Source: Pedobacter sp. Leaf250 (GTDB lineage Bacteria; Bacteroidota; Bacteroidia; Sphingobacteriales; Sphingobacteriaceae). Taken from it: a stretch of DNA of 64,000 nt. Each line of letters starts with the position of its first letter. Position 1 is the first letter of the stretch. The notes under the pieces are model-generated. The model made no database searches. It saw nothing but the letters and a program-made list of their open reading frames with translations, and had not been told where the DNA came from. The position numbers and the translations under genes are program-made. Location: NCBI RefSeq assembly GCF_920984735.1, contig NZ_CAKLBU010000012.1, forward strand, positions 1 to 64,000, given 5' to 3'. This document shows, one piece after another, positions 8,352 through 11,997 of this stretch.

Positions 8352-9044
8352 TCATCTTTTAAGATTGTTTTTGAGACTATTTTTCGTATCGTGTAATTTA
8401 ATATTCAGTTTGTTAATTTCGTGCAAATCTCGATATTCACGTACAGCATTTGTAATGGCTTGCATTACGTTTTGCCATTTAAGTTTTGTGTCAATCAATT
8501 TTACAGGAACGGTAAAGTCGATATCGTTATAGTACATTAAGGAAGAAATAGCGGAGCCGGGATTGACATTGGGGTATTTTTGACTATAATAATTGATAAT
8601 TTCATCCAATGTCATTCCCTTTAAAAGGTGATGTATATCGATAAAATCCTTGATCCGCTGTCCGCTATTTACAATTGCATTGATTTTCATGGCAGATATA
8701 TCCTGGTTGGACATTATCCTTATTCCTTCAATGGTTTCTATTGGCCTGATAGATGGATACTTATGCGAGATCAAATCAAAATCAACTTCGCCAATGCTAC
8801 CACTTACATAATTGCCTTTGTGGCGTTTTACATCTGCACCATAGCAATTCTTTAAGTGTACGGCGAGTACATTACCATCAAAGTCCGAAGAGCTGAAAAG
8901 GTCGATATCTATGGATTCCCTGTGGCCAATCCTTAAAGATAGTGCGGTACCTCCAACAAGATAAAAGGAGTTGAGCTGATTGTCTTTCATCAGCTCTAGG
9001 ATTAGATCCAGTGTCCCTGGTTTAACTGTTTCTTTGTATAACAT
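8352..9044 (-). CDS. AbiEii-type nucleotidyltransferase toxin
   Basis: 230 residues from ATG 9044, which gives the natural start MLYKETVKPG; a longer frame exists. The nucleotidyltransferase core is visible: YLVGGTALSLRIG at 28-40, then HRESIDIDLF with Asp46 and Asp48 as likely metal ligands. This is the AbiEii (PF08843) pattern, the toxin of type IV toxin-antitoxin or abortive-infection systems. AbiEii-like toxins act by transferring nucleotides, for example to tRNA. The start lies inside the upstream gene (43-nt overlap), so the pair is translationally coupled. Possible phage defence is family knowledge, not shown here. Confidence 0.82.
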   Translation of the reverse strand: MLYKETVKPGTLDLILELMKDNQLNSFYLVGGTALSLRIGHRESIDIDLFSSSDFDGNVLAVHLKNCYGADVKRHKGNYVSGSIGEVDFDLISHKYPSIRPIETIEGIRIMSNQDISAMKINAIVNSGQRIKDFIDIHHLLKGMTLDEIINYYSQKYPNVNPGSAISSLMYYNDIDFTVPVKLIDTKLKWQNVMQAITNAVREYRDLHEINKLNIKLHDTKNSLKNNLKR

Positions 9045-9505
9045 CTGAGTTCTTCTTTGCTCAACTGAAAATATTCGCAAACGGCTTCCATCGTCATATC
9101 GGTAAGGTAGGTGATGTCATTTTTAAGGGCATTTACTACATTTTCCCTCCCGTAAAATCTGATCATCTCTTCCCGGTCACTAATGTTGCCTCTATCAAGC
9201 ACCCGCTCTATAATGGTTTTGTAACTCCTGTTCCAGTCCAGTTTTTCGAAATCAAAGTCCCAAAACAGTACCTTTGGAAGGTCTGGTCTTCTGACCTTTT
9301 GTATCAGTGGCTGTCTTTCAATTTTGATTTCATCGTTTTCGAACGGAATCTTCTTTTTTGAAAGATAGTTGTTCAATGTATGATAGTTATAGGCTGGGTA
9401 GCTGTCGCAAAATCCTTTCAGACTTGAAAACACATCGATATCTGTACCGGCAAATCTTTTCCAATGCACAACGATTACTCTTTTGTTCAATTCCTTTAAC
9501 ATCAT
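9002..9505 (-). CDS. AbiE-partner antitoxin-like protein (DUF6922-like)
   Basis: 167 residues, upstream of and overlapping the AbiEii gene. The N-terminal part (residues about 8-68: VIVVHWKRF, FSSLKGFC, NNYLSKKKIPFE) looks like a small helical DNA-binding module. The C-terminal part (LFWDFDFEKLDW, RVLDRGN, IRFYGRENV, FRCYTKK-like end) fits the DUF6922 pattern that accompanies AbiEii nucleotidyltransferases in Bacteroidota. It is therefore the likely antitoxin and autoregulator of the pair. The domain name is from memory and the antitoxin role rests on gene order. Confidence 0.6.
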   Translation of the reverse strand: MMLKELNKRVIVVHWKRFAGTDIDVFSSLKGFCDSYPAYNYHTLNNYLSKKKIPFENDEIKIERQPLIQKVRRPDLPKVLFWDFDFEKLDWNRSYKTIIERVLDRGNISDREEMIRFYGRENVVNALKNDITYLTDMTMEAVCEYFQLSKEELRCYTKKQLNQGHWI

Positions 9506-9573: not shown

Positions 9574-11678
9574 CTAATTATATTTATCGCTCAGGTGTGC
9601 CATGTCTCTACTAACCTTGATGTCCAAGACTTTTGCATATATTTGAGTAGTCCTGATGTTCGTGTGCCCAAGCATCTTCGATACGCTTTCCATTGGCACT
9701 CCGTTAAGAAGGGTGATAGTCGTAGCGAATGTGTACCTTGCAATATGTGAGCTTAAAGGCTTATTAATCTCGCAAACTGCAGCGATTTCTTTAAGTGGGC
9801 TAGGCCACCAGCGCTTTGCCACCTTGCAGTGGTAAGTCTCTGCTAACCCGCCCCCGAACCGTACGTACATGTCTCCATGTATACGGCTCTCCATTGTCAA
9901 CATAACCTTACTTATCATAGTTTTTATGGATCAATGCTCATTCTGTCGACGGTTCTGCCGTCGGCGCCCGGCGTCATATTGCCTTGATTGGCATATTTAC
10001 GCTGATAGGCAATAAAGAACATTTCCTCGTTAAACAGAATTCGGTAGAGCCTTTCGTATCGGTAAGCCGAAACTTTGCTATGTTCGCATAAAGCGTTTAA
10101 TACTTGCACTGGATCTCTCATACGTCTCTCACGTTTTCCTTTGTTTGTATTAAGTTGACAACTGCTTCCCTTCGCCATGTACAGGGTGTTACCCAGTTCG
10201 GACTACTACGGAAGCTCCGTTTCCATATCGGGTATTCAGTATCTTCATACATAGCCCATTAAAAAAATGAGCATCCCAACTTAGGAAATCCCCGTTTAGT
10301 TTCGTAATGACTGTTAGCGCGACAGACTGTCGGATGCGACTTTCGTTCTTTTCTCCGCTTATTGCGGTTGTGCCGTAGCAGCGTTCTAAGCTCTCATTGA
10401 GTACCTGACAAATGAGAGAGCTACGGTGTGACAATACAACTGCCTTTCGTCACAGATTCAACATGCCCCACTGAACTATCGTTTAACCAGTATAGGCTTC
10501 ATCCTTGTGTCTGCCTTTCTCCCCAGCGATGCACTCGCCTTTGGCAATTAAAGCGGCCATGCTGTATACCGACATGCTACACTCCCTATTGGGTTTCCCC
10601 TCCAGATAAGTCGGTCGGGAGTAGACCTGGAACCTAGTCTAGTCTCTTGCCAAAGAGACATTCATTACAAAACCTTTACGGGCGCACGATATTCATTCAT
10701 TTTCTGATTACTTGATACCGGCAATACCCGATCTTTTATGATGCAATGTGGATGATCAATATATTTTTCCAACACTGCGATTGCAGGCGGCAAAAGGGGA
10801 ACAGCAGATCGTGTGCCTGTTTTGGTTCTGTTTGTATACACCCATTTTTTTCCATCTACACCTGTTTTAATATTGGCAAGGCTCAGCTTTTCAATGTCAG
10901 AATAGGCAAGTCCGGTAAAACAGCAGAAGATGAAAACGTCCCGTACCTGAGCAAGCCTATCGGTTAGAAATTTTTTCTCTGAAATTTTTGTTAACTCATC
11001 CTCCGTTAAAAACGATCTTTCCACATTCTTACTCTTTAGTTTGTAGCCAAACATTGGATCGCTGTCGATCCATTTTAAGCTCAATGAGATGCGCAGGATT
11101 TTGCCAAGGCTTTTCAGATATCTTACTGTCGTGTTGTTCGCGCAGCCGTTTGTCGACCTTAAGAAAAAATCGAAATCCTTTATAAATGCATAATTAACAT
11201 TTCTGATGTTTATATCTGTTATCTGGTATTTATCATTCATAAAGGCGATTAGATGTCTTTCCAAAACCTGGAAGCGCTTCAAGGTTCCAATGGCATATTC
11301 ACGTCCAACTAATGCTTTCATTTTTTCGTTATGAATTTTGATGCCTTCAATCAAGGTATGCTTTCGAACTTCCCGCCCGATAAATCGACTCTTAATGCTT
11401 TCGGAGGTAATAACTTCGCCGGAATCGAAGAGATCCTTATGAACCTGATAGATCATGGACTGAAGATTGTCCAGATAAGCATTAAAGCTTCTGACATCTT
11501 CCTTTTTTCCATCCTGCCTTCCGGATTTGGCATTCCACCTTAAAGGATCACACTCAAGCCCGCTCGTCATTTCCGACCGGTTTCCGCTGACTGTTATTCT
11601 CAAATAAACCGGGATATCACCGCCACGATAGTTTTTTTGCTTTTTAAGATAGAAAAGCATGCTGAAATTAGTTTTCAT
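9574..11678 (-). CDS. Tyrosine recombinase/integrase, interrupted by a group II intron
   Basis: The island's integrase, in two exons: 11678-10688 and 9794-9574. Joining them gives 1,212 nt, exactly 403 codons plus stop, and restores ...NQKMNEY-LKEIAAV... at the junction. The N-terminal arm-binding and core-binding domains are complete. In the catalytic domain FTGLAYSDI has Ala where most recombinases have Arg I, as in IntDOT-type enzymes; then come TKTG (Lys), HIARYTF (His, Arg), LGHTNIRTTQIYAKV (His and Tyr nucleophile). Start ATG 11678 matches the usual MKTNFSMLFYLKKQ start; an ATG 20 codons upstream is less likely. Its 5' end faces the tRNA-Lys gene about 250 bp away, the expected attachment site. 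Activity would require splicing. Confidence 0.85.
9854..9889 (-). ncRNA. Group II intron domain V catalytic hairpin
   Basis: On the minus strand the lower stem is GAGCCGTA paired with TACGGTTC and carries the AGC triad. The upper stem is TACATG paired with CATGTA, closed by the GNRA tetraloop GAGA. A two-nucleotide CG bulge separates the stems. The catalytic core looks intact. Confidence 0.9.
9924..10178 (-). pseudogene. N-terminal stub of group II intron reverse transcriptase/maturase
   Basis: Residues about 23-80 (VLNALCEHS, YRYERLYRILFN, AYQRKYANQGNMTPGADGRT) match the N-terminal RT-0 region of bacterial intron-encoded proteins. The frame ends 84 residues in, just after RMSID, and the sequence passes straight into intron domain IV/V. 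Full proteins have about 420-600 residues, so RT domains 1-7, domain X and any DNA-binding or endonuclease part are gone. It encodes no enzyme. Confidence 0.8.
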
Positions 11679-11900: not shown

Positions 11901-11924
11901 ACGTAGTTTTGGTACTATCTTCTG

Positions 11925-11997
11925 TGATCCCGCTGGGATTCGAACCCAGGACCACTACATTAAAAGTGTAATGCTCTACCAGCTGAGCTACGGAATC
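11925..11997 (-). tRNA. tRNA-Lys (anticodon TTT)
   Basis: A 73-nt cloverleaf on the minus strand. The acceptor arms are GATTCCG and CGGGATC with discriminator A, the D-arm GCTC/GAGC, the anticodon stem TTACA/TGTAG with loop CTTTTAA, and the T-arm CTGGG/CCCAG with TTCGAAT. CCA is not encoded. Its 3' end faces the integrase and island, the usual integration target for tyrosine recombinases. No second copy of the 3' end was seen to the left, so the far attachment site should lie outside the window. Confidence 0.95.

Follow-up and report, generated by a model that had tools for sequence, protein, structure and literature searches.

An ORF-deleted group II intron in a tRNA-Lys island integrase of Pedobacter and its lineage at one codon of Bacteroidota integrases

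In Pedobacter sp. Leaf250, a genomic island beside a tRNA-Lys gene has its integrase gene cut in two by a group II intron that lacks an intact protein gene. How might such an integrase still be made, and where did such an intron come from? We analyzed a 64,000-nucleotide stretch of contig NZ_CAKLBU010000012.1 (positions 1–64,000, hereafter the window) together with related loci in its own and other genomes. With a probability of roughly 0.7, we read the intron as a non-autonomous copy of an Ll.LtrB-type lineage that homes to a single codon of Bacteroidota integrase genes, with splicing gating the island. At the sequence level, the comparisons below establish the identity of the intron, its exact junctions, its target specificity, its internal deletion, and the presence of a full-length sister in the same genome. 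An earlier, sequence-only reading of the window had recognized the anatomy (a group II intron, an exact join, and a tRNA-Lys island integrase) but overlooked both the loss of the maturase gene and the same-codon lineage.

The intron and the integrase that it interrupts

The intron spans 893 nt on the minus strand (9795–10687), exactly where the sequence-only reading had placed it, and both of its ends are readable on that strand: GTGCGCCC at 10687 and CCCAC at 9795. The 5′ GTGCG, also called correctly before, agrees with the GUGYG consensus of group II introns, and the terminal AC agrees with their 3′ AY. A covariance search, proposed earlier as a check, matches RF00029 (Rfam) at 9795–9891 (minus strand; 62.5 bits, E 6.8e-10, cut-off 40); the only further match to an Rfam group II family at E ≤ 1 is a plastid domain V (DV) model at 19.7 bits. 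DV and domain VI (DVI) fold together at −46.8 kcal/mol (z −5.08), which none of 200 shuffled sequences equals. The Rfam match and the fold place DV at 9856–9889 (minus strand), with its catalytic triad and with the GAGA tetraloop and two-nucleotide bulge that had been described from the letters; the bulge was then given as CG, whereas the fold draws it as AC. The DVI stem claimed previously is likewise found in the fold, in a region at 9795–9853 (minus strand), and the predicted branch point is a bulged A at 9801 (minus strand), 7 nt before the intron 3′ end. Domains I–IV match 0 Rfam models at E ≤ 1; hairpins are seen there, one stretch of which folds no better than its shuffles. Part of the DV–DVI segment (9825–9882, minus strand) also gives a sub-threshold match to the sRNA family Bacilli-1 (25.2 bits, cut-off 55.6), which may itself be intron-like.

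Excised in silico, the intron leaves a continuous 403-codon tyrosine recombinase. Exon 1 (991 nt, 10688–11678, minus strand) encodes Arm-DNA-bind_5, Phage_int_SAM_5, and the first part of the catalytic domain; exon 2 (221 nt including the stop, 9574–9794, minus strand) encodes HxxR, GH, and the catalytic Tyr. The two join in phase 1 within a Leu codon (C/TT, the slash marking the junction). This join, as previously claimed, is borne out by a PF00589 match (57.6 bits) in the joined protein; the exon 1 reading alone gives the two N-terminal domains only. Intron-less homologues with the same junction, suggested earlier as a further check, do exist: L084, L085, and L086 are 89, 88, and 87% identical to the joined protein and align with it unbroken over residues 1–402, straight through the join. 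Read without splicing, the frame terminates seven codons past the junction (RAPVKVL, then two stops) and never reaches HxxR, GH, and Tyr. An active recombinase would therefore need splicing, and the anatomy makes splicing-gated mobility of the island likely. A separate frame of the unspliced RNA runs into exon 2 (9574–9918, minus strand). It begins at an ATG near or overlapping the stop of the intron protein, crosses DV and DVI, and could yield a peptide with the integrase C-terminus. This arrangement occurs in 11 of 12 copies, which may be chance, the tails being ∼95% alike.

The window integrase keeps K, H, R, H, and Y, and the conserved His after the Arg of HxxR is replaced by Tyr. Its Arg I position is Ala, and is Ala or Ser in 20 of 21 intron-free relatives (one has a gap). 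Both exons are open, with pairwise dN/dS values against L084 of 0.070 for exon 1 and 0.052 for exon 2, although these mostly measure the time preceding the recent insertion. The adjoining tRNA-Lys gene (TTT; 11924–11997, minus strand) is the likely attachment gene, as a tRNA-Lys also lies near each of the intron-free L084, L085, and L086. Only the tRNA-proximal end of the island is seen: no 14-mer of the tRNA region recurs in the window, and the distal end was not found there. Elsewhere in the genome, 22-nt stretches resembling the tRNA-Lys 3′ end (2 mismatches), with no tRNA, occur at C12:147307 and C28:19690 and are possible att sites; the latter adjoins another integrase match. The window also contains a weak AbiEii-like gene at 8352–9080.

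A full-length sister and the lost maturase gene

The Pedobacter genome (4.82 Mb, 50 contigs) contains this intron at two places, with two DV matches. The second copy (C17:19351–21851) is full length at 2501 nt, and its core is 99.7% identical to that of the window copy. Three single-base differences separate the two (nt 37, nt 165, and one G fewer in the window at nt 250), together with a ∼1.6-kb deletion from the window copy. We considered that the window copy had lost the base at nt 250 and rejected this, as an alignment of 12 copies assigns the extra G to C17 and gives the window the majority form. The deletion, whose junction lies at 9931–9937 (minus strand), has the letters GCATT common to both ends and removed most of the reverse-transcriptase (RT) gene. 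An intact RT-maturase-endonuclease ORF is present in the C17 copy and absent from the window copy, where an 84-aa N-terminal remnant persists (9924–10178, minus strand).

The C17 protein (625 aa) carries RVT_1, Intron_maturas2, and AI2M-like HNH domains. Its nearest PDB match, end to end, is LtrA (501.5 bits over 26–621; next best 153.3), a likeness to the Ll.LtrB/Ef.PcfG introns of Lactococcus and Enterococcus (IIA, LtrA-type) that is drawn through the C17 protein, the window copy itself keeping 84 aa only. A TIGR04416 search of the genome returned C17 at 285 bits (curated cut-off 300) and, on C28, a partial match of 74 bits. No near-full-length group II RT other than the C17 maturase was found in this genome, and the cognate maturase, if any, is therefore that of C17; since the window copy has lost its own gene, its splicing would probably require the C17 protein in trans. 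The C17 host is a different tyrosine recombinase, 40% aa identical to that of the window, and it is interrupted at the homologous codon (NQRMNGY/LKEIADL versus NQKMNEY/LKEIAAV in the window). AbiEii and AbiEi genes (L006:5211–6867) lie directly downstream of this C17 integrase.

Bacterial ORF-less introns are described in PMC4424553 as rare and nearly always found alongside a related intron that may supply its protein in trans. The window intron resembles them, as there described, in sharing its genome with a related protein-encoding intron. It differs in that donor and dependent intron occupy the integrases of two different loci, and dependence would therefore link two islands. PMC4424553 also offers a reported precedent for an intron that splices without any intron-encoded protein, C.te.I1 of Clostridium tetani. 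A further pointer in this direction comes from genome G294, where an ORF-deleted copy (L045) lies in an open integrase frame and a search for group II RTs came up empty; this genome would break the rule that ORF-less introns share a genome with a related maturase-encoding intron. We nonetheless regard protein-free splicing of the window intron as quite unlikely, given that the Pedobacter genome encodes a cognate protein and that, according to PMC6003770, introns of the Ll.LtrB type need their own protein for efficient splicing in vivo.

One codon in many integrases

Among 399 genomes of the same bacterial family, 33 had some match to the intron; two candidates were scored per genome, which makes every copy number a minimum. 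In the complete genome G320 this search picked up two copies, and a search of that genome by itself picked up four and a 3′ fragment. Sixteen close copies have a 5′ junction that can be read, and all 16 interrupt the NQxMNxY/LKEI codon, just before the HxxR motif of tyrosine-recombinase genes, in Sphingobacteriaceae, Chitinophagales, and Bacteroidales, though these 16 are partly non-independent (C17 and G372 share 96.6% integrase identity, and L080 and L081 come from the same genome and have similar exons). At the other end, 17 of 18 close 3′ junctions run into an integrase (12 full copies, L042, L043, and L044, and L113 and L114, possibly the far ends of L080 and L081); the exception is the G320 fragment, L112. 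An internal intron fragment, L047, adjoins an integrase start. An exon-blind scan, in which a 24-base pattern of the intron 5′ end was run against a collection of 84,980 species, returned eight loci: three in Mucilaginibacter (two genomes), three in Pedobacter (two genomes), and one each in a Chitinophagales and a Proteiniphilum MAG. All eight, which are counted among the 16, fall at the NQxMNxY/LKEI codon, and four of them are in genomes already seen (G372, G359 on two contigs, and G294). A class-wide draw gave intron matches in 4 of 395 genomes, with a close match only in the Pedobacter genome itself. Viral contigs yielded 0 matches to the exact 5′ pattern, and plasmids and phages yielded partial matches only (2018 and 6 records), none covering 80%. 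The literature that we searched, largely open-access papers, returned nothing on introns at this integrase site.

How is this codon recognized? Other targets are used by a wider family of introns (∼67–78% identical), which allows the exon-binding sequences (EBS) to be found by covariation with the intron-binding sequences (IBS) of the exons. We used one representative per target (11 targets) and 20,000 permutations, trying five stretches for EBS1 and seven, in two registers, for EBS2. For EBS1, the hairpin loop at nt 274–296 fits its own IBS1 with a score of 52.5 against a mean of 44.2, and for EBS2, nt 218–234 scores 46.0 against 37.2; in both cases 0 of 20,000 permutations did as well. With the EBS2 register shifted by one, 617 (nt 218–234) and 76 (nt 222–236) of 20,000 did, and every other stretch gave at least 1077. 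Two candidates were discarded: GGTATT at nt 250 was dropped as wrong for EBS1, and GTTCA at nt 212, which is conserved in distant relatives too, was rejected for EBS2 (1542 of 20,000 permutations).

In the window, covariation and pairing place EBS1 (GGTACT, intron nt 283–288) at 10400–10405 and EBS2 (GTTGA, intron nt 226–230) at 10458–10462. Pairing places IBS1 (AATATC) at 10688–10693, IBS2 (TGAAT) at 10695–10699, and the delta A (intron nt 282), partner of the T at exon position +1, at 10406 (all minus strand). Exon positions −4 to −1 pair with GGTA in 12 of 12 close copies, as does the +1 T with the delta A next to EBS1; in L043, +1 is G. The EBS2 interaction comprises four of five pairs, with a constant mismatch at −11, in all 12 copies including the window, and the full six EBS1 pairs form in three of the 12, the window having five of six. 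Positions −8, −2, and −1 are pyrimidines in 16/16 occupied sites and in 21/21 intron-free sites, the latter having been selected through a protein motif in which the Tyr is invariant. Each of the three faces a G, able to pair with C and U, at a synonymous position (AAY or GAY, TAY, YTN), and the guide should therefore tolerate silent changes.

We compared 12 copies over the intron core (first 600 plus last 124 nt). Mean core identity is 95.2% and mean integrase aa identity 47.4%, and across 66 pairs the two are uncorrelated (r = 0.01). The four G320 copies have cores 99.7–100% identical in host integrases that are only 37–51% identical. Identity that ends so sharply at the intron borders fits retrohoming. 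DNA-level gene conversion between integrase genes could be proposed instead, every site being in homologous genes, but the stop of identity at the intron ends, the divergence of the G320 hosts around near-identical cores, and the missing correlation between intron and integrase identity make it highly improbable. tRNA genes near the interrupted integrases are Lys for G320a and G293, Pro for G320b, and Ser for G320c, and none was found at the other five of the nine loci scanned. We had also considered the G320a integrase dead for want of HxxR and dropped this idea, its RxxK form being common to six intron-free relatives (L098–L103).

The wider family (L050, L051, L053–L059, L062, and L064) has different hosts. 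Ten were checked, by one exon each, and the matches were to TraG (two), TraJ (three, one at 33 bits), MobB (one, at 49 bits, below the cut-off), DUF4133 (one), and DUF932 (one); two of the ten gave no match, one of these being scanned in Pfam only. Judged by these exons, the family at large inhabits transfer genes of Bacteroidota conjugative elements, and the integrase branch has moved to an integration gene.

Part of the ORF has been lost in four of the 12 complete copies: the window, G294 (750 nt), G389 (724 nt), and L083 (2094 nt). The deletions of the window, G294, and G389 differ, and all lie within nt 603–2378, DV beginning at 2405; their sparing of DV agrees either with selection that keeps the ribozyme working or with mere survivorship. 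Upstream breaks interrupt exon 1 of G293 and L083; that of G389 is short, and its integrase is probably broken. DV is changed in G293, L079 is cut by a contig end, and truncated copies include L042 and L044 (without 5′ parts), L043 (5′ part missing near a contig start), and L112. With some sister copies truncated or in broken integrases, insertion may often end an integrase.

Might the window copy itself have ceased to splice usefully, leaving the integrase in effect knocked out and the island immobilized? The decay of several sisters would agree with this, as would the deleted maturase gene, the imperfect EBS1 and EBS2 pairing, and the His-to-Tyr change beside the catalytic Arg. Yet the ribozyme ends and domains V–VI are intact and, three single bases aside, identical to those of the full-length sister, the exons are open, and a maturase is encoded elsewhere in the genome. 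We consider such a knockout unlikely, though less so than protein-free splicing.

Splicing and the possible control of island mobility

The favored reading, a non-autonomous intron that still splices, can be set out as a series of steps. Full-length copies would invade intron-free island integrase genes by retrohoming. The window copy would have shed most of domain IV while retaining the ribozyme core, and its pre-mRNA would be spliced in trans by the maturase from the C17 copy. An integrase complete with HxxR, GH, and Tyr would come from the spliced mRNA only; splicing, together with a protein encoded in another integrase gene, would therefore gate excision and integration of the tRNA-Lys island.

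Known introns offer parallels to parts of this scheme. Ll.LtrB and Ef.PcfG, according to PMC5072309 and PMC4256276, are 99.7% identical introns at one conserved position in 61% identical exons, and PMC4256276 describes Ll.LtrB splicing as required for its relaxase. As described there, they have in common with our lineage near-identical introns at one conserved position in differing mobile-element genes; their transfer protein requires splicing, as the integrase here probably would. Unlike them, the introns described here are in Bacteroidota, with a tyrosine integrase rather than a relaxase as host; the window copy is without a protein gene, and several genomic copies occupy separate islands. 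RmInt1, within the transposase of ISRm2011-2, likewise interrupts a DNA-mobility gene of its host element, and PMC4238363 states that its splicing is essential for movement of that insertion sequence, proposes that it limits this movement, and mentions class D introns that interrupt transposases and integrases. RmInt1 belongs to a different intron class (the RmInt1 lineage), however, and resides in an insertion sequence rather than a tRNA island.

A broader control network can be imagined. The intron of one island would supply the maturase indispensable for making the window integrase, its spliced RNP could also attack the mRNA or DNA of every other integrase with the conserved NQxMNxYL codons, and a single intron family would thereby set the mobility of many unrelated islands. 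Ll.LtrB is reported in PMC6003770 to attack spliced mRNA via EBS–IBS pairing and to lower conjugation. We put this network forward tentatively and consider it doubtful as a whole.

Intron-free, intron-full, and ORF-deleted alleles are all present in close relatives. If the favored reading is correct, the movement of many Bacteroidota islands would be gated by RNA splicing at one common codon, and a deleted intron would tie the integrase of one island to a protein encoded within the integrase gene of another. This would extend the story of Ll.LtrB and its relaxase to the integration step and provide a natural example in which one mobile element controls several more.
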